A stretch of DNA of 64,000 bases from Lobosporangium transversale (Eukaryota; Mortierellomycota; Mortierellomycetes; Mortierellales; Mortierellaceae). Shown here in pieces: positions 5,301 to 64,000 of this stretch (position 1 is its first letter; each line of letters opens with the position of its first letter). The translations under genes and the position numbers were made by a program. The notes below the pieces were generated by a model. It was not told the DNA's origin and did no database searches. It was given only the letters and a program-made list of their open reading frames with translations. The DNA lies in contig NW_019029009.1 of NCBI RefSeq assembly GCF_002105155.1, positions 310,001 through 374,000 on the forward strand. The letters run 5' to 3'.

Positions 5301-7319
5301 CTCTTCAGGAGCAAAAAGAGCGTCTCCAGCGTGAGATTCAAACCTATGTCGAGCAACGTGATGGCGTCCTAGACGAGATGCAGATTCTGAGCGTACGAAA
5401 TGCTGAACTATCTGCTATGAATAATGACATGATGAGAGAACTGCAAGAACGCAGGCCTGGACCTCCAGTTGCACCATCTTCAGCTGCAAATAGCGGTGGC
5501 GGAAGTATGTTCTCCCTAGGCAAGATGAGGAGACAACGGCAAGCGAGTGGAGGAAACCAGCAAGAGCTTAAGGCATCACAGTTAACTGTCGCCCGTAGCA
5601 GCGATTCTACCTACTCATTCAACTCGACCCACTCTGATGAACAAGGTCGCCCGTCATCGAAAGGCAAAAAGTCTGACGAAATCCAAGAAGATATTTTTGG
5701 AGAGGAGATTGTCGCTCCCAAGAAGTTCAACTGGAAGAAGGGTACCATGAACACGCTTTACACAGGCGTTGGCACGGTCCGATCTGTTGGAGCCATGTTT
5801 GGAAAGCTTATTGTAGAAGGACCCAGTACAGGATTGGACGTCCCCAATAATAAGGCCAATACAGGAATGTTGACAGATAATGGAAGCTCCAACAGTCAGG
5901 TTCTCCCACCAACAAGATCATTCTCTGTGAACAGCGAGACTGGCTCTCTTAACGGACGCATCCCAGAGCTGCATCACTTTATTCAGCACAATTACTCCAA
6001 GCCAACACGCTGCGAGTATTGCGATGAGAAGCTTCGAGGCCGTGAATACAAATGTCGTAGTAAGTTCCTTATTTTAAATGTAATATGCTAGATAATGATG
6101 TGAAAGAATCTAATTTTTTTTTCTCCTTCTAACTCTTCTTCTTCTTTACCATTAGCCTGTGGGTTCCAGATCCATGGACGCTGCACGCACGAGTCTGTGC
6201 CTTCATGTCCAGGCAAGCCCAAGGATTCAGATTCCTCGAGCATTCGTGGTGTCAATTCTAGCGCAGGAAGCGGTCACGGACTCCCACCTACGCCCCCTAC
6301 ACCGCCTGCTAAGCAGATCATGTTTGGTAACGGTCTTGTTGACCAACTGGAGATTGAGCAACGAACCATCCCACTTGTTGTTGAAAAATGCATTGAGGCT
6401 GTTGATGAGCGTGGCTTGGACGTCGAGGGTATTTACCGTCGTTCTGGTATGGCTGCAGAGGCAAGGCAGCTGGTACAGGCATACGATATTGGAGTTTATC
6501 CTGACCTTATGGATGAGTCGCTCTATCAAGATATCTGTTCGATTACGTCTGTCCTGAAACAGTATCTCCGCAGTTTGCCTGAGCCTCTTGTTCCTTTTGA
6601 TCTTTATGATGAGTTTATGGAGGCCATTGCGCTGCCGCACGGGGAGTCCAAGTATCAAGTCTTCCGGGATTTGTTGGCACGTATGCATGTCGCTCATTAT
6701 GAGACTCTTAGGACTTTGCTCCATCATCTCAATAGGGTCACAGAGCATGAGAGTATCAACTTGATGACACCCAAGAACTTGTCTGTGGTCTTTGGTCCCA
6801 CTTTGATGCGAAATCCTGATCCTAGTCGCGAGATCATGGATATGGTTTACAAGAATATGACCATTGAATTTTTGATCGTCAATACGTCTGAACTTTTCGG
6901 TCCACCTGAGAAGCCAGCGATGAATGGCAACAAGAGCGAGATCAATGGTGGCGTCAGCGGACAGGCTTCACCAGGTGCTTCTACTGATGTGCCTGCAACA
7001 ACCCTATCTCCAATGACTCCACTTGCGTCTTCGCTTACGCCTCCATCAACGCAGGGACAAGGAGCAGTGACGATTGCGGCCGTCAATGGATTCCCTCACA
7101 ATTTTACGCGTCAGCGTCAAGGCTCCTTCAGTAGTTTGGGGCCACACAGTAACGTGCCGCCACCACAACCTCCTACCAGACGAATCGCTGGACATGCACC
7201 ATCGCCCGTGATGTCTCAGGAGAATGGCACTTTTATGCCTACATTGCCACCTAGGTCAAGTTCCGGTGAGGCTGTGCCAACATTGAGCCAATCACAGCCA
7301 CAGCAGCAGAACTATTACC

Positions 7320-7359
<40 letters not shown>

Positions 7360-7564
7360 GCAGCAGCAACAACTCTATCGGCCTCAACAGTTCATATCGC
7401 CTCAACCTCAGCAGCATCAAACCATTCAGCAGCTGAAGCAGCAACAACAACAAAGAGAGCAACAGCAGCGAGAACAACAGCAACAGCATGCAACATCGAA
7501 TATTGTGATTGAACAGCAGCAGCAGATGGCCAATCCTGAGGTTGACATGAGCAACTTCCCATAA
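2368..7564 (+). CDS. LIM-C1-RhoGAP protein (fungal Rga-type Rho GTPase-activating protein)
   Basis: Predicted to stimulate GTP hydrolysis by Rho/Cdc42-family GTPases and so influence cell polarity and wall growth (family knowledge). Exons: 2368-2462, 3258-3400, 3627-3838, 4043-4672, 4833-5071, 5179-6059, 6156-7564. They sum to 3609 nt, a 1202-residue protein that closes in frame. Two adjacent LIM zinc-finger domains occupy about residues 8-115, with all Cys/His ligands visible. A Ser/Pro-rich linker and a coiled coil (about 440-550) follow. A complete C1 domain (H, CxxC, CxxC, HxxC, C pattern) lies at about 704-750 and crosses the last intron. RhoGAP is at about 790-980, with the arginine finger in GIYRRSG and the KNLSVVFGP motif. 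The C-terminus is Gln-rich, with a CAA/CAG run at 7316-7380. Intron 1 needs a GC donor at 2463, because only that joins the LIM WHxxCFxC motif in frame. The intron 4673-4832 is the least certain. Confidence 0.9.
2463..3257 (+). other. long GC-AG intron inside the first LIM domain
   Basis: The donor reads TG|GCAAGT and the acceptor TAATAG|CT. Joining at GC restores Cys-Phe-Arg-Cys right after WHVQ, the LIM1 consensus. The nearby GT at 2467 would leave exon 1 in phase 0 and throw exon 2 out of frame. At 795 nt it is the longest intron I modelled in this window, and it contains a TTA/TAT-rich tract at about 2945-3010. Confidence 0.8.
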
Positions 7565-7898
7565 GAAAGGGATTGAGGGAAAAAGCTGGATACTCTCTTT
7601 TTATTTTTTTTATTTTTTTTTTTATTTTTTTTTTTATTTTTTTTTTTTTTTTACATAGTCTCATACTCATTTCGCTTTCAATCTCTATTTTCTTTTTTCT
7701 TTTTTCTTTTTTTTTTCTTTTTTTTCTCACTTTTGTCATTCATCTTATACCAAGAAGAAAAAAAAAAAAACTTGTACACATAATAAAATATATTCACAAC
7801 GTGTAAAAAATGGAAAAGCAAGAAAGACCTATTTTTTTTTTTATAGTTTTATTATTTTATTTTGCTCATGAAGGAGGTCATTAATGTTTTTTATTTTT

Positions 7899-10419
7899 CT
7901 AACGTAGTTGAGTGGACCTTTGCTGAGGACTACTAAGACCTGTGGCTCCAACAGAAGGAGGAGGGTTGTAACCTGGGGGCAAAGGAGCATTAGGAAGAGA
8001 AGGAGAAGCGAAAGGATCATGGGTTGGCTGAGGATAAGTGACCTGAGACTTTTGTTGGGGCGGCGGAGCAAAATAACCAGCGGAGGAAGCAGGACCGACA
8101 GTGCTGCCAGTGACAAGAGGGCTGGCATATCCGTTTCCAGGATGAAGAGGTCCAGAGGTGAGGTCAGCAAGATTAGGAGACATCTGAAGAGCAGTCTGAT
8201 GATCCAAATACACGGGTTGAACAGCGATGGTGCCATCAGGCAAGTGTTGCATCAGATATTGGACGTTACCCTGAGCTTGACCACCCATGGCGGGGGAAGC
8301 GGCAGCGTTGCTCAACAAGAGTTCATCCATTCCATTATATGCACCAGCGTGAGTCATTCCAGGAGTTGAGATGATGGAACCATTGATGCTGGAGCTGCCA
8401 GCGGCCAAACGAGCCGATCTAGGGGAAGTAGGGGACTGACCGCCGTTGCCTGGTTTACTATTGCTTCCTTCGGGCCTCAACGAGGCCAAATAGGCTTCCT
8501 TCTCCATTTCAGCTTCCCTGATCTCAATCTGTTTCTGTCGACGCTTGTAAATAAAGAATGCAGCGATACAAGCAATGACGGAGGCCACGCCAATGACGAT
8601 CCCAATGATGGGGCCTATGCCTAATCCAGAATTGGAGCCGCCGGTCCCGGGGAGGGGTTGTGAAGTCGTGGTGGTGTCCTGTTTAGGAGCATAAGATTTC
8701 ATCCAAGTGGAGAGCATGACATCATAGACCTGAACATCCTTTCCGTACGCGATCTGGGGGGAGTTGAGGGCGACAGCGGCCATGCCTCCATAGACTACCA
8801 TGTTGGCGCCTGCAATATCACATGTATGTCCATGACGAGGTTGGTTTGAGTTTGTGGTCACGATCTGAGACCATGTCCAGGTGATGAGGTCCAGAGACCA
8901 GACATCGGAAAGAGAGAGTTTAGAGTTTCCATCATAGCCTCCAAAGATGATGACTTTATGGCTGGCAGTGATAACACTACAATGATCTTGGCGAGGTGGT
9001 GGAACCTGACCCAGAGTGAATTGAACGCCATGCGTGAGAGTATCTGGATTAGAGACGTCAATGTAGGGTAAACTCTGGAAAGATTGGTAACCTCGTCGAC
9101 CAGCTGTTGAACTGAAGCCTCCAAAGATATAGATCCTGTTATTAAAGATATGCGCTGTGCCAGAATTGAAATTGTTCAGTGCACCGCCATTGTTATTGTT
9201 GCTATTACTAGAAGGGATCAAGTTGGCAGTCCAGGTATTGTCCTGAAATCGATCAATCTCATTTGTGCTGCTACCATCAGGGAATGCTCCACCTAATAAC
9301 CAGGAGATACCCGAAGCAGGATCTGTTACAAAATTGGCTGCCTTTCTGCTCGCCCACTTTGAAGCTTGACTATTAAGGGAAAATAAAATATTTAAAAAAA
9401 AAAAAAAAAAAAAAAAAGCATATGTATAAATATACTTGTTATTAGAACCCAGGTACCAAGATTCAAAAACAAAAGAGCGGAAAAACATTTGTACAACCGT
9501 GAGCAACACACACACATAAGAGTTGAGTTGTGTGGTATTGTCATGAGAGCGATTTTCTTTCCTCTCTTTCTCTCTAATTGCAAATACTGTAGCAAATTCT
9601 AATTGTATTCTTCTGACCAATCACAAAAAGAAGATACGCAAGGACCTTCTCCTATTCATCCATCCAAGCCAAGGTCACCGCCACATGGAGGGGAGGAAAT
9701 GTCAAATTGGGTTCTTTTTTTCTTTGTTCCTGGGGGATGCGCAGTACAATACAATTGCCAACATTCCTTTGCTCACCCCTTCTTCTTTTTTTTTTTTTTT
9801 TTTTTTTTTCCTCTCTCCGCCTGCCTTTTTTTTTTTTTTTTGTTCATATATGACATGCATAAAATAAATAAAAAAAAGTAATAAACGGAAATTAAAAAAC
9901 TTACGCAGAAGGTGCTTCGATAGTAGACCAAGAACCTGCAGCAATGTTGTACTGGTACAAAAAGGGTGTTCCCTGTGATTCTGTGGGTGCGGTGACTAAG
10001 AGAGTGGTTCCATCCTTAGACATGGTCGCATCATGTCCCGAGACTGTGGGACCAGTCAAGGTACCACTGGAAGGAAGAGTCAAGTTGGTCCAAGCAGGAG
10101 AATGAACAGGCCAGGTCTTTGTGAGATCCAGGGAAAAGAGGTCGTTTGTGAATCTGACCGATCCTGTGTTGACTTGACCCCCTTGATAGAAGATAAAGTT
10201 TTTGTTGGCAGCAGAGGCAACGCCGACAAAGCCACTAGGAGCATTGATGGAGGATGCGGGTTGTGAAGGTGAAGGTGAAGATGAAGATGTTGTTGTTGGT
10301 CTAGTAGAAGGCGGTGTTGCTGTTGAACCTTGAGCATTAGAGGTGAGGAACATGTGAGAGGAGAGTGAGAGGGATAGAACGAGTCCTCGCAAGAGGCTCT
10401 GAGAGGAAAGGTTGACCAT
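7899..10419 (-). CDS. kelch-repeat single-pass membrane protein (paralog 1)
   Basis: Two exons on the minus strand, 10419-9905 and 9369-7899, give 661 residues. The 535-nt intron carries long homopolymer runs. A signal peptide precedes a Ser/Thr/Pro-rich stretch. Kelch-type beta-propeller blades then follow, with the motifs IYIFGGF, VIIFGGYDG, MVVYGG and W-W/R-H-G-H spacing. One transmembrane helix (about residues 423-447, GPIIGIVIGVASVIACIAAF) is followed by a basic stop-transfer segment. The cytoplasmic tail is rich in Ser, Pro and Gln and ends at 7899. The layout suggests a cell-surface protein with an extracellular propeller; the ligand is unknown. It is a paralog of the gene at 58011-60460. 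The C-terminus converges on the RhoGAP gene with a 334-nt T-rich gap. Confidence in architecture is high; the biological role is not known. Confidence 0.85.
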
Positions 10420-11156
10420 GATGATCGGGAGGGGGGGGGGGTTTTTTTTTTTTTCCTTTTCTTTTCTTTTTAATTCCCTTTTTGTTGTGCTGGTCTGGTA
10501 GTTTGTTACGAGAAAGAGAATAATAAAAGGAGAGAAGAATCTTTGTTTGCCTTTTTGTTCTTAGCGTGTCTTCTCGCAAGTTTTTTTTTCTATTCGAATT
10601 AGCCGTTAAAGGAAATAGGGCTGCACAGGATTGAACTAGCAGAAGCGTGAAATTAAGAAAATTATGCAGTGAAAAAGTTTTTTTTTTTTTAGTGAGTCGT
10701 AGAGAAAATCCAAAAAAAAAAAAAAAAAAAGGGAAAGAAGGAAAGAAAGGGAAGACAGAAAGGAAAGGAAGGGAAAGGAAGAATAGAAATGGATGATGGA
10801 GAGCAGAAAGGAGATGTTTGGGCTGTGGAGGAGAGAGAAAGTGGATTGTGACACAGAAAGGGAAGAGTAGAAAGAGGGCGTAGAAAGGAAAAAGATGGCA
10901 ATGATGTAAACAGAAGACTGGATGAAAGAAGATGAGTCGATTAGGAGGAATGAATGGAGAGAATGATCGTGCAGAGTGTGATGGAGGGGGGAGGGAAGAG
11001 AGTAAACCTTCAAAATGGAAAAACCTTTCTCTCACACATACCTTTTACTCCTTCTTTTAGGCGCCTGCCCAAGCCCTCGCTTTTTTTTTAAAAAAATGAG
11101 CATGGGCTGGACCGTTGAGGTAACTAGCCTGTTGTCCGCCTCCAGGAAAAAAAATA
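10420..11156. other. intergenic, upstream of kelch gene 1
   Basis: This is purine-rich on the plus strand (GGAAAGAAGG-type) with an A-tract at about 10712-10729. It probably holds the promoter and leader of the kelch gene reading leftwards from 10419. The Ser/Phe/Leu-rich open frames on the minus strand follow the base composition and are not supported as genes. Confidence 0.5.
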
Positions 11157-11252
11157 ATAATAAAAGAGCAAGGAGAGAAAGAGCATCAAAAAAAAAGATA
11201 TACAAATGGATATATTTCAGTTACAGTTAATGTCAATCGATCTCTTCCGATT
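11157..11252 (+). repeat. flank repeat A, left copy
   Basis: This 96-nt segment recurs inverted at 15447-15542, directly against the right end of the palindrome. I noticed two substitutions between copies (GAGCATC versus GAGCGTC, and TTACAG versus TTATAG), so the duplication is recent. On the left, 675 nt of unrelated sequence separates it from the palindrome. Confidence 0.9.
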
Positions 11253-11365
11253 CTGTAAACTCGTGCTTTTTCAATCTCTCTTGCTCATTCTTTGCTCTCA
11301 TCCTCACCCTCACCCTCATTTTTACTCTGACTCTCATTCTCACATCAGGTCTTTTTCCTTGCACG

Positions 11366-11384
11366 AGACAGAGACAGAGACAGA

Positions 11385-11449
<65 letters not shown>

Positions 11450-11452
11450 AGA
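11366..11452 (+). repeat. GACAGG/GACAGA tandem hexamer array
   Basis: Three GAGACA-type units lead into about a dozen GGGACA units. The array is preceded by a pyrimidine-rich CTCACCCTCACCCT stretch. It lies in the 675-nt spacer between flank repeat A and the palindrome. It forces long Thr/Gly or Ser/Leu/Val/Pro open frames that are not genes. Confidence 0.9.
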
Positions 11453-11928
11453 GACAGAAAAAGAAAATAAAGAGATCGGTGTGATGTGGTGTTGGAGGAT
11501 GTGTGCAGAGATGCCTGAAAATTGATCCATTTCCACTCGTGAAGGAGGCTATAACTTTATTGGTCTCATTCTCATTAGTCAGTCTATTCGCACTACATCG
11601 ACAGAAAGTAGACAGTAGAAAGTAAACTTTTGGTGATAGACCGATACACCACACAATACACATACACTTTCTCTTTCCCTCGAGCCACCAAAAAAAAATT
11701 TATTAAATGCAAATGGTTTTTAATTCAACTCCAGCACTTTCAACATGATATGATAACAATAACAACGAATAACAATAACAAACAAAAAAAAAAAGAACGA
11801 ATGAAATGAAGGGAAAAGAGCCCTTTTTTGTCTGCCTTCCAACTTTTTTGCCTGTGCTTATGCTGACGCAGGAAATGTGATAATAGAATTTTATTCACAA
11901 AACTCGATCTCAAATCAAGTAAAATCAC

Positions 11929-12246
11929 TAAGCATATTAATAAGCGGGGGAAAAGAAAACTAGTCTAACAAGGATCCCCTCAGTAACAGCGAGCGAAGCA
12001 GATGTGAGCTCAAATTTAAAATGTAACCGGTTTACTGGCTCGAGTCGTAGTTTAAAGAGACGTTTTTGGTGGCAACCTGGATATAGATCCTTTGGAATAG
12101 GGTGTCATAGAGGGTGAGAATCACGTCGTTGACTCAGTGGATGCTACATACGTTTTCAAAGAGTCGGGTTGTTTGGGAATGTGGCTCAAAATGGGTGGTA
12201 AACTTCATCTAAAACTAAATATCGGCGAGAGACCGATACCGAACAG
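11929..12246 (+). pseudogene. degenerate 5' fragment of LSU (25/28S) rRNA, left arm
   Basis: Conserved LSU blocks appear in the correct order: AAGCATATTAATAAGCGG, a GAAAAGAAAAC block, AGTAACAGCGAGCGAAGC, GAGCTCAAATTTAAAAT, TCATAGAGGGTGAGAATC, GAGTCGGGTTGTTTGGGAAT, CTCAAAATGGGTGGTAAA and GGCGAGAGACCGATACCGAA. This corresponds to roughly the first 40-360 nt of fungal LSU. Several normally invariant positions are changed, and a TAGT insertion interrupts the start. Homology stops abruptly after GAACAG at 12246 and begins within a base or two of the palindrome edge. It is not a functional rRNA. Confidence 0.88.
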
Positions 12247-12726
12247 CCATTGCTCACAGACAAGGTAAATAGCAACGTATAACCGGAGTCATCGAGCAAT
12301 ATCAGAGAAGACACTGCTAACGACTCCCCCATGTTATTTTAGATGCGACAATGGGAACCAAGGCCGTGTTTACAAGACAATTAAGGCAAATGCACACAAC
12401 CCTTGTATAAATGTCACATGCAGCACCAAACTTGGTTACCTCATGTGGGTCCGCTATTCATACGCGTTAGACTCGCCCCAGGTGATCATTTTTCAGTGGT
12501 GAAGGACTTTAGGTTTGGCACACAACGTCAAAACCCGCCCATGGACAGGGTACAGGTATGCTGAGCCATCCCGGGTAGCCATCCTGATGTTCCTGTCACG
12601 TGCATGATGCCTTCACGCAGAGCGAACGCACGCGTTCCGCAAATAGCTTGCTTTTTCACTCTCGCTGAGCGCACCCTGCATCATTTGTACGTTCTTTGAT
12701 CAGTGTGTGAATTTTCAGATACTATG

Positions 12727-12802
12727 GCATTCATACCCGGACAAACCGTCTGCACAGCTTGCATGCATTCATACCCAGACAAACAGTCCGCACAGTTTGC
12801 AT
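12727..12802 (+). repeat. two 38-nt tandem copies in the left arm
   Basis: Two adjacent units (12727-12764 and 12765-12802) both start GCATTCATACCC and end TTGCAT, with a few substitutions between them. The mirrored pair lies at 14571-14646 in the right arm. The function is unknown; they could be binding sites or a slippage duplication. Confidence 0.8.
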
Positions 12803-13606
12803 TAGTGACTTACAAAGCTCGTCAAGGAGCCGAATAACATATTGGTTTTCGCCTACATTATGCCCCAGAGGCCGTGATTGGCGGGCTGTTTTGCCTGCAT
12901 CTTTAGATATCACTTTATTCTGCGGATGTTGTGTTCGAGTTGCTAACTGTACTATTGTTTTTTTTATCGCTTTTCTGTGCAAGGCGGGGCTCCCTCCTAG
13001 ACACATTATAGGTCAGACGAGGCATGCTCTGAGTCTATGTGCTTCTGGCTCAGTTCTACCTATGACGCTCTGTGAGAGGGGCTCCGCCTTTGTATTGCAC
13101 CAAAGGGAGTGTTTTAGTGGTCATCACACTGTCTGTCGTGAGATTGGTGCCTATCCACTAGCTCTATTGTACAACAGTGTTTAGTCTTCGCGAGATTGTG
13201 GAGAGCAGAAAGCCTGGTTAGGGTATAATGCTGGACCTGGTTTCACTTCCTAGGCTTTGTCCAAAGCATTATCAAAGATTCCAGCCGCTGATCTTTCTTT
13301 CAAGATGCAAGTAATACTAACACAAAAACTGACTCGCACAAAACCCATAGAAAGTGATATTAAATCTTCTTTCATGATACCATTTTTGTTATTTTAGTAC
13401 GCAGTACTAGTATACCATACTGGACACTTGGTACTAAAATCAATACGATCTTTTTATATCTGTATGGATTCGGCAACATACCTCTAGGAAAAAGGACCGG
13501 AAAGGTCTTTTGTTTTTCTTTAGGCAGGGAATAAAAAATGAAAATGGTAAATGGTACTAGATGCACTAAAAGAGTGGAGGAGGCAAGTAAATGGTGGACA
13601 TGGTGC

Positions 13607-13766
13607 ATCGTGATGACATAGCTTGATATATGGTGTCTGCTGATTTTTTTCTACTGATTTTTTTCCTTCCTTTGTATGTAATAGGCGGCTGATTTCTGCT
13701 TGTAGGGAGCACAGAAACTGGATCTGATCTGCCTATGAGTTTGTGAGAATCAACAAAAAAATATCA
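13607..13766. other. unpaired centre of the palindrome
   Basis: This 160-nt spacer separates the arms. It has two short CTGATTTTTTT-type runs on the left and their weak mirror (AATCAACAAAAAAATATCA) on the right. It may therefore be a decayed extension of the arms. No coding potential is seen. Confidence 0.7.
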
Positions 13767-15126
13767 GCACCATGTCCACCATTTACTTGCCTCCTCCACT
13801 CTTTTAGTGCATCTAGCACCATTTACCATTTTCATTTTTTATTCCCTGCCTAAAGAAAAACAAAAGACCTTTCCGGTCCTTTTTCCTAGAGGTATGTTGC
13901 CGAATCCATACAGATATAAAAAGATCGTATTGATTTTAGTACCAAGTGTCCAGTATGGTATACTAGTACTGCGTACTAAAATAACAAAAATGGTATCATG
14001 AAAGAAGATTTAATATCACTTTCTATGGGTTTTGTGCGAGTCAGTTTTTGTGTTAGTATTACTTGCATCTTGAAAGAAAGATCAGCGGCTGGAATCTTTG
14101 ATAATGCTTTGGACAAAGCCTAGGAAGTGAAACCAGGTCCAGCATTATACCCTAACCAGGCTTTCTGCTCTCCACAATCTCGCGAAGACTAAACACTGTT
14201 GTACAATAGAGCTAGTGGATAGGCACCAATCTCACGACAGACAGTGTGATGACCACTAAAACACTCCCTTTGGTGCAATACAAAGGCGGAGCCCCTCTCA
14301 CAGAGCGTCATAGGTAGAACTGAGCCAGAAGCACATAGACTCAGAGCATGCCTCGTCTGACCTATAATGTGTCTAGGAGGGAGCCCCGCCTTGCACAGAA
14401 AAGCGATAAAAAAAACAATAGTACAGTTAGCAACTCGAACACAACATCCGCAGAATAAAGTGATATCTAAAGATGCAGGCAAAACAGCCCGCCAATCACG
14501 GCCTCTGGGGCATAATGTAGGCGAAAACCAATATGTTATTCGGCTCCTTGACGAGCTTTGTAAGTCACTAATGCAAACTGTGCGGACTGTTTGTCTGGGT
14601 ATGAATGCATGCAAGCTGTGCAGACGGTTTGTCCGGGTATGAATGCCATAGTATCTGAAAATTCACACACTGATCAAAGAACGTACAAATGATGCAGGGT
14701 GCGCTCAGCGAGAGTGAAAAAGCAAGCTATTTGCGGAACGCGTGCGTTCGCTCTGCGTGAAGGCATCATGCACGTGACAGGAACATCAGGATGGCTACCC
14801 GGGATGGCTCAGCATACCTGTACCCTGTCCATGGGCGGGTTTTGACGTTGTGTGCCAAACCTAAAGTCCTTCACCACTGAAAAATGATCACCTGGGGCGA
14901 GTCTAACGCGTATGAATAGCGGACCCACATGAGGTAACCAAGTTTGGTGCTGCATGTGACATTTATACAAGGGTTGTGTGCATTTGCCTTAATTGTCTTG
15001 TAAACACGGCCTTGGTTCCCATTGTCGCATCTAAAATAACATGGGGGAGTCGTTAGCAGTGTCTTCTCTGATATTGCTCGATGACTCCGGTTATACGTTG
15101 CTATTTACCTTGTCTGTGAGCAATGG

Positions 15127-15444
15127 CTGTTCGGTATCGGTCTCTCGCCGATATTTAGTTTTAGATGAAGTTTACCACCCATTTTGAGCCACATTCCCAA
15201 ACAACCCGACTCTTTGAAAACGTATGTAGCATCCACTGAGTCAACGACGTGATTCTCACCCTCTATGACACCCTATTCCAAAGGATCTATATCCAGGTTG
15301 CCACCAAAAACGTCTCTTTAAACTACGACTCGAGCCAGTAAACCGGTTACATTTTAAATTTGAGCTCACATCTGCTTCGCTCGCTGTTACTGAGGGGATC
15401 CTTGTTAGACTAGTTTTCTTTTCTCCCGCTTATTAATATGCTTA
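15127..15444 (-). pseudogene. degenerate 5' fragment of LSU rRNA, right arm
   Basis: This is the mirror image of the left-arm fragment, reading leftwards on the minus strand from CTAAGCATATTAATAAGC at 15445. It carries the same substitutions as the left copy. The two were therefore homogenised or duplicated after the rRNA sequence had already degenerated. Confidence 0.88.
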
Positions 15445-15446
15445 GG

Positions 15447-15542
15447 AATCGGAAGAGATCGATTGACATTAACTATAACTGAAATATATCCATTTGTATA
15501 TCTTTTTTTTTGACGCTCTTTCTCTCCTTGCTCTTTTATTAT
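15447..15542 (-). repeat. flank repeat A, inverted right copy
   Basis: This is the inverted copy of 11157-11252. It abuts the palindrome's right end and runs directly into the duplicated block that starts at about 15541, so three different sources meet within about 100 nt. Confidence 0.9.
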
Positions 15543-15757
15543 GAAATGGGAATTGGAAAAAAAAAAAAAAAAAAAAAGACAATGGGTAATGGAGTGATTC
15601 TTTTTTCTTTTGTCCCCTCTCATTTTCCCCTTGGACAATGTTATAACGGGTCGAAAAGAAGTTTAGAAAAGAAAGCGCATTGATTACAAAAAAGGGTTAT
15701 TCCCATAAACAAAGATTTGCATTATGATGGGGTCGAAGGGGGTTTGTGCTACTTTTT
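15541..15757 (+). repeat. direct copy of the window-end sequence (repeat B)
   Basis: This stretch recurs at 63784-64000. Apart from the A-tract length, I saw one substitution (TCTCATTT here, TCTCCTTT there). At the second site the sequence lies upstream of the alpha/beta hydrolase gene and continues past the window end, so its full length is unknown. Confidence 0.9.
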
Positions 15758-17128
15758 CTATTTAAGTGAACATCTCTTTCTCTCTCTACACTCTTTTTAA
15801 AAGAGAAAATGCAATGGGGGAAGAAAAAGTGTTTTTTCTCCTCCCCACATCCTTACATCCTCTCCCCCACATCTCACTACACACATCCCACAGCCCAGTC
15901 TCTGGAACTTGGATTGAACAAGGACTGTTGTCACGTTGAAAACAATGGTTACACTACTTTTTTTATTTATTTAAACACGCCATTCATTGTTTGGACAAAG
16001 CAAAAAACAGCTTTGTTGGCCTTGTTCTATCCCAGTGCTTTCTATACGTCCTGCAATGCCATCCTTTGCCTTTGTTGGTTCGTTAGATGATCAAACTGTC
16101 CAATACGACGAACCTTTTTTTTTTTTTTTTTTCTTTTTTTTTGTTGGGTTAACAACTCTTGATACTCTTTGTCGCTGATTGAACCCCGTTCAACGCTCTC
16201 ACTCTTTCTCTCTCTCTCGCATACAACATCCACACACTCTCTTTCTTTTCTTTACCTTATTTTCTTTCCTTCCTTCCTTCTTCTTTCTTTCTTTCTTTCT
16301 ATCCTTCCCCCTCCTTATTCTTTTTTTTTTGTTTTGTTTTTTTTTTGTTTTTTTTTTGTGTAAATGTTTTTTTTTTTTTTTTTTTTTGCTTGTGTTCACG
16401 ACTGACATAAAAAAAAGATGCAGTATCATGTAATAAGGAGATGAACGTGGAAAAAAATAAAAATAATAACGCCATGATGCTGTTCAGCACTGTGCTGGAT
16501 GCTCACAAGAACAGAGAACAGGAAGAAGGGAAGAATGAAATGAATAAAGAGAACATTCAGGAAGAGCGTCTTTGCTATTGAGCCATGAAGATCATGTACA
16601 TGCACATGTTATATAAAGTTATTTTTATAAGCAAAGAAAAAAAAAATGGTTCCACAAGTCTCTTTTCTGAGGAGATGAGTAAAAGGATCGATTCCGTTCA
16701 TGCTAGAGAGTATATCTGATGGAATCAAAAGTAAATATATGTCTATACATATTAACAATAAACACTTGTGGTTCACAACAAATAAGTGCAACCGAAGTGT
16801 GGCGTTCGTGGAGGAGGATCGTTTTTTCTTTTTCTTTTTAACGCATCTTCACGTTGAAAACATTCTAGGCAAGCAATTGGCGATCCTATCCTTTTCCCCG
16901 ATTCATGACAAAACGCACAAGCCAGCCTGAAGTACAGGATTCGCACAAGACATCATTGAAAAAATCATGGGCTTTGAATAAATCCGTTTCACACCCTTCC
17001 AAAAATAATTAGATCTCAATGGCGTCATTCCCCCAAACATCGTCCATGGCTCCCCATGCTATAACCAGAGTTCAATGATGGATTTCTTCAGTGATCGATA
17101 CGCGTGCATGATTAAATTGATTGGACAC

Positions 17129-17290
17129 TTAAAAATGTAAAATATCTCCATGTCCTATTAAATTATTGAGACATGGTCTGTGCCATCCGAAACGCTTGAA
17201 ATAAGCGTTGCAGTTGGGGCGAGGACATTTAGCACAAGTGTAATACTCTTGAACGTCTACAACTTCGTATCCAAGGGACCTCGCCTGTTT
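17129..17290 (-). pseudogene. possible relic of a mobile-element protein with a zinc-ribbon-like motif
   Basis: The minus strand reads through a stretch containing GYEVVDVQEYYTCAKCP, then CNAYFKRF, ending in a stop near 17129. A YTxxKCPxxxC pattern after a hydrophobic strand looks like the C-terminal zinc-ribbon segment of proteins carried by repeated elements. The second Cys pair is not evident, and there is no continuation upstream beyond the splice-like junction at about 17290. This is a family impression only. Confidence 0.3.
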
Positions 17291-17622
17291 GAGGAAAAAG
17301 TAAATAAATAAATATGAAAAATAGATCAGAGAATTTTTTTTTTCGATACTTACTCTACTGACGCATCAAAATCCCCCTTTTTCAATATTAATTACGCTAA
17401 TTGAATACATGAATTCTGGAGGAGATTAGCCCAGACTCCTCATTATCAGGTGTGTTTACCTGTTGGAGGATGTCTAGGTGGCAGGAAGGGTGCTACTCGA
17501 CTTTTTCGTTGGACTAGATATTGATTGTTAAATACTAAGTACCCAAGTATTCAATAATAATAATAATAATAATCATAACAGCCATCATACCACCAAACAA
17601 TTCCTCTGTCTGTGACGAGACG

Positions 17623-17775
17623 ATGGATATCCTGCCCTTCCGAGCCAGGTTATTTGCCACATATCCACTTTCAGTTACTAACTCACCAGCAGTATGTGTT
17701 GCTGCTAACACTGCTTTCTGGGACGCCCAGAATGCTGGCCCCTCATTGCGCTTCCAAACCTCGTAGTTGTTCTGC
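17623..17775 (+). pseudogene. protein-like fragment, unrecognised
   Basis: An open stretch starting ATGGATATCCTGCCC encodes about 50 residues of mixed composition (MDILPFRARLFATYP, then AVCVAANTAFWDAQ). That is unlike the low-complexity frames around it. It is probably a decayed fragment of a repeated-element gene. The opposite strand at 17793-17984 has a further 63-codon fragment (WLKDKVKKGE, CDFAENSKYLYE). Confidence 0.25.
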
Positions 17776-17792
17776 AGAGCTATTCGTGTTGC

Positions 17793-17984
17793 TTAAGAGA
17801 TAACGGTGGAATTTTTCAAAAGGGCCACATAAGCCTTTTCGGCATCTTTTTCATACAAGTACTTGGAATTTTCTGCAAAGTCGCACATGGAGACAACTTC
17901 TCCCTTTTTGACTTTATCCTTTAGCCATTGTACTTGCTCAGGAGCGATTCCTTGAAAACTCATTGCTAGAAGTCCAATACTCAT
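17793..17984 (-). CDS. short hypothetical protein or exon fragment
   Basis: A 63-residue frame with an ATG start. It has balanced, helical-looking composition and charged repeats (KDKVKKGEVV, DAEKAYVALLKN). No family was recognised and no splice partner was found upstream or downstream. It may be a remnant exon. Confidence 0.25.
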   Translation of the reverse strand: MSIGLLAMSFQGIAPEQVQWLKDKVKKGEVVSMCDFAENSKYLYEKDAEKAYVALLKNSTVIS

Positions 17985-19234
17985 TAAATATCAGTTAGGA
18001 TCTTGCAAAGTGTGACATAAAAAATTAAAAATAAAAATAAAGTAGTAAAGAGCAGTTGACCACTCTGCCGTGCTCCACTTTCCGTCTACTTCCTACCGCG
18101 AACTAAATAAGGAACGTGCTAAAAAAGTACCAGTGTATATTGGACAGATGTCTTTTCTGGGCCTGCGCTCATTCAAACAGGAAATAAACATGCTAACAAA
18201 CCTAAAGATTGATCTAATATGGGTAATGAGGAAGGATAGAGCTAATTAATGCAAGAGCATTGATGCTGGATAGATTGAAAAGGCTGAAAAAAAGTAGTGC
18301 CACAAAATAAAAAAATGGTGATGACGCGTAAAAAGTAAAAAAAAATAAAAAAATAAAAAAATAAAAAATATCGAAATAAAGGGCAGTAATAATGAGAACA
18401 GCAGAGATGATGAAAGGGTAAAAGTAAAGGAGATTGCTAATGAAGAGAGAGGAGCTGATGGCTGTAAAATTAAGTGGTGGCGATGAGGCGCAGAAAATGC
18501 AGTGCAGTCCACGACACGTAGGCTCGTCATAGGCTCGTCACCAGTCTGGAGGACGAAGTTCATGTGCACATGCACGTACTGAAAGGCAAATCTGGCTTGC
18601 TCTTGCAGACACTTCTCTCTCAGGCTGGGACCAAACTTGACATTTGGGCTGGAGGTCTCTTTTTTAAATTTGAAAAAATTCCCAAGTCGGACACACCACG
18701 GGAAAGGCTCTCTTTTTTCTGCCATTCTCGCCGCAGAACATTGATTTGATTGAGAACGAACGAGGAATGAGAAAAAAGGATGGTATATTTCGCGTAAAAA
18801 GAGTCATCATGCTCTAATTAATCAATTAATTACCTTTAATTAAGATAGTGTGCTTAATAAGGTCAGAGAGATGGAAACGAGAATTGTGGAGTAGATCAAA
18901 TGTTAGAATAATAAAATGTTAGAATAATAGATGGCAATGCAGATGATGGAAACAAGAGATGATTGGTAAAAATGAGGCTAGTGATTTAGGTGTGTGTGTA
19001 GGACCGATTAAAAAGCGCCATCCCGTTTGTCAAAAGGGCAAGTGGATAGTGATGGCTTCGTTCATAAAGGATGAACGATTGTAAAGGATACTCAATAGAT
19101 ATGGTATTTTCATTACAAGGCAAAATTCCTTTCACTTGATTGACATTCGACTCTTTTCTTCATGCTTGAACCTCGGCGATCCTCCTGCATATGCGGTATT
19201 GATGCGAGTTTTTATGACACACTGTCCGCATGTT

Positions 19235-19525
19235 TTAAATATCTAGGTGTTGCCTTAACGCTCTGATCGTTGTTGATAACGAGCTCCTAAACTTTAAGCT
19301 TGACGTGTATGTCGCCTGGGACCATGGAACGGAGAAATGTGATATTGTCACTTTTCTCCGAGGTTTGATCGGTTTCTCTGCAAGCATGATCCAGTAAATA
19401 TTATCAATCATCTCCTTGAATGATGCTTGCTTGATCGGATGCTCCTCTGATGTGACCTGGACTGGCTTGTCGGGCCCCAACACAAAACTTATGGGTGGAA
19501 AGATAGGAATAAACAATAGAAACAA
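19235..19525 (-). pseudogene. protein-like fragment, unrecognised
   Basis: A minus-strand frame includes GPDKPVQVTSEEHPIKQASF and KEMIDNIYWIMLAEK. The composition is protein-like for about 60 codons and then loses coherence. It sits in a gene-poor region with other fragments. I did not recognise the source family. Confidence 0.25.
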
Positions 19526-21183
19526 CTTGCCACTTGCTTGAGAAAATTCTGATGATGCAGCTGCGGCAATCCGCTTGGTGTGCTCACTTCTCCTTGCTCA
19601 GGTTTATTGAATAGCGATATTTTAATTTATCTATTAGTGCTATATTACAAAATTGTGTCTGTGCCATTATCGTAAACAATGGCGAGTAAAAAGAAGTAAA
19701 AGAAACGATCGCTACTTTTTCCTTGGTCCCTTATCCCTGCTTGGCCTATTGGACTTGTCGTCCTCCGCTTGAGTCGACTCACCTTTTCTTTTATTTGATC
19801 CGCTGGGTTTGCGCAGTTCTTCCCTATTTTCATCTGCAAATACCACAACTACCGTCTAATGCGATCCTGGTATTGTTAATGCCCTTACGTTTTCTTCGCT
19901 AGACCGTCACAACCCTGACCTGCGTCAAACGGTGAAGGTGAGAAGTAGGCTCGTCAACAGCCTGTGTGCCTTATATGCGTTGCACCAATGCTCACTGACA
20001 GGTTGAGTCCAAACTCGAGATATCAAAATAGCCTTCGTTGAATCCATGGGGAGGAAAGACACCAATCCGGCAACAACAATAGGATATGATCAGTTGCATA
20101 TTCCACAGTACACGTGTTACATGAAGATTTATAATACAGACATACTAACGGCTCTATGCCCCATGGTGTGGTGCCCGAGACAAACTTGCAGTTTTATTTT
20201 GATACAAATTTGGATAAATGCCCCATGGATGTGATGTGTGAACCCACATCCTATTCTCACTTCTGCTCCCTGGTTACTATTTGTCTGTCTAAAATTTTTC
20301 ATGAGCTACTACAAACATGACTAGGTCGGGAAAGACCTTCGTCTTGAAAAAGTTGTAAGTATTAGCTTGACAGTGCTTTCTTGACTAATCTCTTTATTTC
20401 TATGCTTGGTCTAGATGGTGTTTTTTTATGGGGAGGACTATTTAGACAACATATAGACCCCACATATCTTAATCCTAATAAATTGGCTTGGTGGCATTGT
20501 TGTAAAAAATATCTTTGCTTAAGGGACAGAAAGATAGACACAATCAGGAAAAGGCAGGACAAAGAGTGTCAACAAGATTGACAAGAGAAAATAGAGTCAA
20601 ATAACCTTGACTACAAACAGCGCCATAGAATGTCAAAAGAAAAGATGGGAGCTTTATAGGTGAGCTCACAAACTGAGTTACCGGAAGACAAATGCTTGTT
20701 GTGAAAAGGGGAAAAAGATAAATGGCAAGATGAACTGCAGGTGAAGAATAAGACATATGGGGAAAACTGAAGACTTTATTAAGAAGGAAGTTTCTTTGGC
20801 TTTTATACTCGGTAGTTTCTAGGTGAGGCGGACCCGCCTATGACTACAAAGGCTTTGCGCAAAGATTCCTTTAAGCTGGCTCGACAGATTAGTGACCAGT
20901 CACACCACTTGCAATAACAAGCGAGTCAATTGGCTGCCAATACATTTAAGAGTATTCAAAAAATATAAGGGATCGCGACCAAATGGAACGGGCTGTACTT
21001 TAATATGCCATGCGGACAGCTTTGATTGATCATTCATACTGTTTGCATTTACAAGGTTTTAACATTTTTCCAAATTCGATGATTTATTATTAAAAAGATT
21101 CAGCAAAGTAAAAGAAAAAAGTCCGAGTTGCAGGGACGATGTGGGTACGGTGGAGAGCCAACAATCATTCTGGCGTCCTTTTA

Positions 21184-50735: not shown

Positions 50736-50882
50736 GCCCTCGCTATCGCACCGTCATTTACGGTACCAACACTAGCATTTTCAAATCTTACTCTCACAAA
50801 AGCACTACCTTTTACCAGCACTTAACCACTACTACCATTACTTCTGCCAGTATTTCCAAAGTCTTTCCCCTACTCCATCACC

Positions 50883-51794
50883 ATGTTTTTTATTAAACAC
50901 TGTACTCTGACCTTTGCTATCTTCTTGGCAACCTCTTTCGTGGCCCAAGCAGCGCCGGTGCCAACAACTGAAGCGCCTGTTCCCGTTGTCACAAGCATTG
51001 TTCAGGAAGGTGCTCTCTGGATCGATAACAATACAGAGCACATCCCTGTGATTAATGCAGCTGAAGCTAGTGAAGGCAGTCATGGCTACCGTCGTGCTGT
51101 GAATAGCCAGCCATACTATCCACCGGGGTACCCAGTCTCTCAAGCTGCTGAGAATGCTCTTCCACGCATTTATCCAGGGCACCCGGTCACCGCGGCTCCT
51201 AAGTCGGTCGTTGCTCTTGTGTCGAAGCCGCAGGAAGGCTCCAAGGATTTAGTTAAACGAAGGATGCCTGTCTACAAGGACTACAATGAGGGAGATGAGG
51301 ATGAAGACAAGGTTAAGAAGGACGAAGAAGAGCAAGAGGAGGACCAAGAAGAGGAACAAGAAGAGGAAGAAGAAGAGGAGGAGGAAGAGGAGGAGGAAGA
51401 GGAGGAGGAAGAGGAGGAAGAGGAGGAAGAGGAGGAAGAGGAGGAAGAGGAGGAAGAGGAGGAAGAGGAGGAGGAAGAGGAGGAGGAAGAGGAGGAGGAA
51501 CAGGAGGAGGAAGAGGAGGAGGAACAGGAGGAGGAAGAGGAAGAGCTCTATCCACTTTCCGTTGACGAACTCGATACACTGTCTGAAAACGAGCCCTATA
51601 AGCCGTCCAATGAACAAGGTCATCCCAAGAAAGGACAGTCTGGAGGAAAGAGAGAGAAGAGGGCGGAAGAGAAGGTAGGAAAGAAGGGAAAGGTGCATGA
51701 AGATACTAAAGCCGGAAAGAAGGAAAAGAAGTACGAGAGCTTCCTTGATAAGATCCGGATGAACTGGTGCTATGTCATGTTCTGCAAGTACTAA
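50883..51794 (+). CDS. secreted protein with an extended poly-glutamate tract
   Basis: A single exon of 303 residues. A signal peptide (FAIFLATSFVAQAAPVP) precedes a Pro/Ala-rich region with KR/KRR dibasic sites (YRRAV, LVKRRMPVYKDY) that could be processed by a Kex2-type protease. Residues about 140-222 are almost all Glu, encoded by GAG/GAA repeats at 51303-51545 with occasional Gln. A Lys-rich basic segment (KKGQSGGKREKRAEEKVGKK) follows, and the protein ends in a short aromatic/Cys motif (RMNWCYVMFCKY). The acidic block next to a basic block could bind cations or fold back on itself; that is inference. A strong TATA box lies upstream. The family is unrecognised. Repeat length may vary between strains. 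Confidence 0.82.
   Translation: MFFIKHCTLTFAIFLATSFVAQAAPVPTTEAPVPVVTSIVQEGALWIDNNTEHIPVINAAEASEGSHGYRRAVNSQPYYPPGYPVSQAAENALPRIYPGHPVTAAPKSVVALVSKPQEGSKDLVKRRMPVYKDYNEGDEDEDKVKKDEEEQEEDQEEEQEEEEEEEEEEEEEEEEEEEEEEEEEEEEEEEEEEEEEEEEEEEEEEEQEEEEEEEQEEEEEELYPLSVDELDTLSENEPYKPSNEQGHPKKGQSGGKREKRAEEKVGKKGKVHEDTKAGKKEKKYESFLDKIRMNWCYVMFCKY
51303..51545 (+). repeat. GAG/GAA-rich tandem repeat encoding poly-Glu
   Basis: Imperfect units of GAGGAGGAA and GAGGAA over about 240 nt, uninterrupted by stops on this frame. Mirror frames on both strands give Leu-rich, Pro-rich and Arg/Lys-rich open frames that are artefacts of the repeat. Confidence 0.92.
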
Positions 51795-63783: not shown

Positions 63784-63799
63784 ATGAAATGGGAATTGG

Positions 63800-63832
<33 letters not shown>

Positions 63833-64000
63833 CAATGGGTAATGGAGTGATTCTTTTTTCTTTTGTCCCCTCTCCTTTTCCCCTTGGACAATGTTATAAC
63901 GGGTCGAAAAGAAGTTTAGAAAAGAAAGCGCATTGATTACAAAAAAGGGTTATTCCCATAAACAAAGATTTGCATTATGATGGGGTCGAAGGGGGTTTGT
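63784..64000 (+). repeat. second copy of repeat B, truncated by the window end
   Basis: Near-identical to 15541-15757. Here it carries a longer A run (about 31 nt). It begins after GTGAAAAAGA and is still matching at the last base, so its true length is greater than 217 nt. Confidence 0.9.

Follow-up and report, generated by a model that had tools for sequence, protein, structure and literature searches.

Fold-back inversions are known mainly from yeast genetics, tumours and patients. We analysed a window of 64,000 nucleotides (nt) from Lobosporangium transversale, an early-diverging fungus (positions 310001-374000 of contig C53 in assembly G000, which comprises 42.7 Mb in 127 contigs). The window carries a near-perfect palindrome of 3.5 kb, which is centred on a dispersed foldback-type repeat and has fragments of large-subunit (LSU) ribosomal RNA (rRNA) at both outer ends. 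We found that this palindrome is probably an inverted duplication (fold-back inversion) with template switches, left by DNA repair. Positions without a contig label are those of the window; C40, C53, C54, C60 and C87 are contigs of the same assembly.

In Saccharomyces cerevisiae, fold-back inversions are reported to undergo secondary rearrangements, mostly at homologies such as repeats, and complex products to include skips and microhomology joins; no role was found there for POL32-dependent break-induced replication (PMC7467729). The locus described here resembles the yeast inversions in its inverted copy, its putatively hairpin-derived turning point and its second rearrangement. It differs in being interstitial, with both ends on one contig and arms of 1.7 kb, whereas the yeast cases are selected chromosome-arm rearrangements (PMC7467729). 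Human fold-back inverted duplications likewise have a single-copy, loop-derived spacer and inverted sequence at the border, but the human cases are large and patient-derived, while the border in our window is a dispersed foldback-type repeat (PMC3907307). Rearrangement of single-stranded DNA at inverted repeats is similar in its fold-back, inverted duplication and healing near repetitive elements; that system differs in its engineered Alu repeats, its dicentric breakage and the size of its duplications, ~24 or ~100 kb (PMC10164571). Replication template switching of the origin-dependent inverted-repeat amplification (ODIRA) type could also make an inverted junction (PMC11790251), and the final sequence does not separate such switching from break repair. 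Gap filling at elements with terminal inverted repeats (TIRs) is a related route for transposons to collect other DNA (PMC8277862).

The inverted-repeat comparison gave two arms of 1679 nt each without indels around a 160-nt centre, just as an earlier, sequence-only reading of this DNA had claimed. The arms differ at two sites (11949 G / 15424 A and 13556 A / 13817 G, all given in the left sense). The inverted copy adjoins its template and is spaced from it by the 160-nt centre, which is the arrangement of a fold-back inversion. The sequences flanking 11928 and 15445 were unlike each other and no target site duplication was seen at these edges, both judged by eye. A genome search with the outer part of the arm returned two matches, namely the two arms, and revealed no multi-copy element.

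11928..13606, + strand: left palindrome arm, the probable template (inverted-repeat comparison)
12240..13301, + strand: outer arm sequence, whose only genome copies are the two arms
13607..13766, + strand: unpaired centre (loop) of 160 nt, also on C87, joined there to one arm
13767..15445, - strand: right palindrome arm, the probable copy (inverted-repeat comparison)

While the arms are as the sequence-only reading had them, the palindrome does not simply end at 11928 and 15445. The next 97 nt on the right (15446-15542) are an inverted copy of 11157-11253 with 2 mismatches (97.9% identity). Read outward, the right side follows the left side but without 11254-11927, a stretch of 674 nt. No other copy of this left-only stretch was found in the genome by a search that passes over simple repeats. 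A hexanucleotide array (GACAGG and variants) lies within it, at roughly 11366-11456.

11157..11253, + strand: source copy of the 97-nt inverted piece (97.9% inverted match)
11254..11927, + strand: 674-nt left-only stretch, either skipped on the right or (as a rival explanation has it) inserted later on the left
15446..15542, - strand: 97-nt inverted copy of 11157-11253, in which the mirror goes on after the 674-nt skip

Beyond this piece the right flank was found to repeat DNA from 48 kb away on the same contig. Positions 15541-18529 correspond to C53 373784-376783 (window position 63784 on), with 5 indels and 9 substitutions in 2987 nt, about 0.3%. The tract and the 97-nt inverted piece have an AT in common where they join (15541-15542), so that the tract starts no more than 2 nt from the end of that piece, as expected of a template switch. 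At the distant locus, the resident left flank continues directly into 63784. At its right end the tract passes into the terminal part of a dispersed repeat that is present at both loci (6 substitutions and one 2-nt indel over 18530-18689). The outer end is thus joined by 2 nt of microhomology on one side and by homology of a repeat terminus on the other. Past 18689 the repeats of the two loci are only about 70% alike (18993-19542 vs 67336-67914), and the window-side repeat is 89-93% like ten other genome copies; a genome search with 16480-19600 gave at least 54 matches (205 candidates, 40 scored).

15541..18529, + strand: copied tract (compared with C53 373784-376783)
18530..18689, + strand: terminal ~160 nt of the dispersed repeat at the right end of the tract, present at both loci
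63784..64000, + strand: start of the probable donor copy; similarity goes on past the window to C53 376945

An old tandem duplication was also considered as the source of the right flank, and was rejected. Comparison of 7000-21000 with 57000-72000 gave the 99% tract, two matches of 30-31 nt and three further matches, all of these three from 18621 on, in the dispersed repeat; the similarity is therefore that of a recent copy plus a shared repeat. We infer that copying ran from the distant locus to this one, the simpler direction by parsimony.

Taken together, we propose the following course for a fold-back inversion at this site. After a break and resection, the end of the left portion would have folded back at the central foldback-type element. 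The folded end would then have primed synthesis and copied, moving outward, ~1.7 kb of its own left flank, together with an LSU fragment that was already decayed. Synthesis would have passed over 674 nt of template, copied a further 97 nt and switched via the 2-nt microhomology to DNA 48 kb downstream. There ~3.0 kb would have been copied before the end rejoined the chromosome inside the terminal ~160 nt of the dispersed repeat found at both places. The arms, the element family, the 97-nt inverted piece and the copied tract with both its ends come directly from comparing sequences. We infer this order of steps and a single event, and one event can explain every junction. The inverted copy has 4 substitutions in 1776 nt and the copied tract 9 in 2987 nt (Fisher p = 0.78), so the divergences are compatible with one event. 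An inverted duplication made during repair had been the third of three origins offered by the sequence-only reading, and it is the best supported of them. The repeated foldback-type centre, the 97-nt inverted piece and the copied 3.0-kb tract were beyond the reach of that reading, which was made without tools.

The presence of LSU rRNA at both outer ends, also claimed in that reading, was confirmed with Rfam. LSU_rRNA_eukarya matched the left end with 151.7 bits (E 6.9e-37) and the right end with 161.5 bits (E 1.4e-39), in both cases over model positions 24-358 of 3401. These matches are far beyond chance. Up to E 5, the stretch 11000-16000 yielded no rRNA family besides LSU (and overlapping matches of the same clan). 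The left copy agrees with the Rfam consensus at 216 of 324 aligned positions, and at 126 of 147 where the consensus is in upper case, showing that the LSU piece is decayed, as had been noted before.

11924..12257, + strand: decayed 5' fragment of nuclear LSU rRNA in the left arm (Rfam); the similarity may start near 11906
15116..15453, - strand: mirrored copy of the decayed LSU fragment (Rfam)

The edges of the palindrome and of the rRNA homology had been said to coincide to within one or two bases, which is probably not the case on the left. Here 11906-11921, 7 nt beyond the mirrored part, matches the 5' end of a fungal LSU at 14 of 16 positions. Among 5000 shuffles of that stretch, 5 scored as high; of 4264 overlapping sixty-base pieces taken from both strands of the window, 5 did so too, this site being one of them. 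The stretch beyond the right edge scored like its own shuffles, 4604 of 5000 being as high. LSU similarity therefore seems, as far as these alignments go, to run past the palindrome edge on the left and not on the right, suggesting that the left side is probably the older arrangement and the template.

The LSU share is about 320 of the 1679 nt of each arm. Because it is short, sits at the outer ends and is decayed, the integration of a palindromic rDNA (ribosomal DNA) molecule, another of the origins offered earlier, is disfavoured. The LSU-bearing palindrome is not a free-standing rDNA element, and the LSU piece seems to be an older passenger, not the cause of the palindrome. When the genome was scanned with two conserved LSU patterns, allowing 3 mismatches at most, the only hits were the copies in the palindrome and a single site on C40, which gave no Rfam match. 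The assembly seems to lack canonical rDNA, or the two patterns missed it; the rDNA array may have been left out of the assembly.

We also searched the genome with the whole arm. At least 56 matches were obtained (57 candidates, of which 40 were scored, making the counts lower bounds), namely the two arms and 54 others, and among the matches listed all of these 54 fell inside arm positions 1374-1679. The centre of the palindrome is thus a dispersed repeat.

13302..14071, + strand: central element, a dispersed foldback-type repeat with arms at 13302/13384-13606 and 13767-13989/14071

Of 30 loci fetched from the arm search, 20 were examined. Long inverted arms over the element, 74-90% alike, were present in eight (L003, L005, L008, L009, L010, L011, L015 and L017, with L009 and L010 being mutual mirror copies), suggesting that the family is foldback-like; its elements reach about 1.4 kb. 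Foldback transposons (FB, Galileo and the like) have long, variable inverted arms and a middle segment, and the family copies are similar in both respects. Unlike in those transposons, the repeated unit is the central ~770 nt only and not the whole 3.5-kb palindrome. From the family, it is likely that a good inverted repeat existed at this site before the event.

The sequence-only reading had further offered a foldback or long-TIR element with captured rDNA, i.e. a mobile foldback transposon with very long TIRs that transposed here. That the centre belongs to a foldback-type family with other copies of up to about 1.4 kb speaks for it. The outer 1374 nt of the arm had no further copy among the matches listed, the flanks are unlike, no target duplication was seen at the edges, and the right edge is followed by part of the left flank in inverted orientation; we regard such a transposon as very improbable. 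A mobile-element reading of the whole palindrome was rejected, the outer arm having been found only as the two arms.

The closest sibling found (L007, a locus from C87; 1335-1704 of L007 and onward) has the loop and one arm; over 370 columns it differs by 5 substitutions and 1 indel, all beyond column 216. Its arm breaks off at TA followed by CAGTGTTCCCTC, a motif that resembles a pogo-type transposon insertion.

Several observations weigh against the fold-back account with a left template. Twelve of the 20 family loci lacked long inverted arms: L006, L019, L022, L023 and L030 had short inverted pairs only (39-96 nt), no inverted pair was found in L004 and L024-L028, and L007 had just one, outside the element. 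The second arm of the C87 sibling is a weak trace of 52 columns (relaxed score 20.5 vs 16.0 for the best of 300 shuffles). Moreover, the loop of C87 is joined to its single good arm in the manner of the right side of the palindrome; with a left template, the loop must have flipped once between the arms. At 13556/13817, 12 of 14 family loci have the right base, while C87 and L006 have the left one. The last two findings would fit a reversed order, with the right side as template and the left arm copied from it, though the mismatch at 13556/13817 does not decide the template side. We consider the reversed order quite improbable. No more than 2 nt lie between the right limit of symmetry and the point where the copied tract begins, which would be a coincidence if the right side were older; LSU seems to run on at the left only; and it is the closest sibling, C87, that carries the left base at 13556.

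A further difficulty is a 10-nt gap in the left LSU alignment that coincides exactly with the edge of the palindrome and leaves doubt about the similarity beyond it. The Rfam score is ~10 bits higher for the right LSU copy, partly via bases outside the palindrome, and a CCG stands there at the expected helix position. No microhomology was seen by eye at the skip junction 15445/15446. The 97-nt piece is more diverged than the arms (2/97 vs 2/1679, p = 0.016); synthesis may have been error-prone, the arms may have undergone conversion later, or there may have been two events. Finally, the donor direction of the 3.0-kb tract is a matter of parsimony and not of proof.

The gap and the better right edge would fit a variant in which the fold-back first gave arms of 1776 nt (11157-11253 plus 11928-13606) and the 674 nt were inserted on the left afterwards, and no template skip would then be needed. 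No target duplication was seen by eye at 11253/11928, however, no other copy of 11254-11927 was found, and the likeness of 11906-11921 to the LSU 5' end would have to be chance, at 5 in 5000 shuffles. A later insertion is therefore unlikely in our view. The probabilities that we attach to it and to a right-hand template overlap with that of the fold-back inversion proposed above, both being variants of a fold-back origin.

A second palindrome was found on C60 (287755-290993 / 291793-295030; 3239 columns, 3 mismatches, 1 gap, a 799-nt centre and 7.3 kb overall), covered by loci L091, L010, L009 and L092. A foldback-family element lies at the inner edge of each arm (289557-290984 and 291802-293229). 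The mismatches, at 290962, 290963 and 290971, are all within 32 nt of the inner edge. A repeat flanks the palindrome on both sides in the same orientation and has in common with it the outermost 31 nt (287755-287785 / 295000-295030), which form inverted ends, so the C60 mirror too ends at a repeat. Farther out, three of three 201-base sample pairs were not mirrored. Outside the element, 1085 nt of the C60 arm also matched a single site on C54 (87% over 54-945, with a further 62 nt at 100%). An Rfam scan of 10 loci, including four that cover the C60 palindrome, gave no rRNA at the gathering score. Among 84 fetched loci of more than 2 kb, near-perfect inverted repeats (at least 300 nt, 97%) were found only in those of the C53 and C60 palindromes, this being a scan of mostly 3-4-kb and often overlapping loci and no census of the genome.

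Two such palindromes in one assembly could also be explained by an artefact of the method. In the window, the assembly might have turned back into the left flank at the central repeat, through the assembler itself or through a chimeric read, with gap closing joining the rest; the near identity of the arms and the dispersed repeat at the centre would fit such an error. An artefact does not readily account for the differences at two arm sites, the two in the 97-nt piece, or the 9 substitutions and 5 indels in the copied tract. Nor does it explain why the mirror stops, skips 674 nt and resumes, between unlike flanks and deep within a 490-kb contig. We therefore hold an artefact to be a rather slim prospect, and the palindrome is, judging by the assembled sequence, real.

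We suggest only tentatively that the foldback-type family repeatedly seeds long palindromes in this genome, with its inverted arms as the turning point for repair synthesis. It is similarly conceivable, though doubtful, that host DNA next to the element (in the present case even an old rRNA fragment) is mirrored in this way and then joined to distant DNA.

Elsewhere in the window, 7899-9620 encodes a Kelch protein with 97 matches (best 63% identity, 7993 candidates scored). All of its matches with a genus name except one, from Circinella, were in genera that we take to be Mortierellaceae or close kin. An open reading frame (ORF) at 50826-51794 contains a very long stretch rich in glutamate. 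At E 0.1, Pfam gave no match for the ORF within the arm (12711-13181) or for those on the right flank (17793-17981 and 18246-18722).

Fold-back inversion as a class is already known, and no title among the literature matches listed names this locus. What is moderately interesting is a natural case centred on a repeat and accompanied by another palindrome in its assembly. It would be a legible natural case in an early-diverging fungus, in which the turning point, the skip, the template switch and the rejoining site can all be read. It also cautions that rRNA-like sequence at the ends of a palindrome need not mean an rDNA-derived element. Together with the C60 palindrome, it would offer a system for counting the role of repeated inverted elements in the birth of palindromes. 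If recurrent seeding by the foldback-type family were true, the two young examples on C53 and C60 would represent a natural and recurrent source of palindromes.

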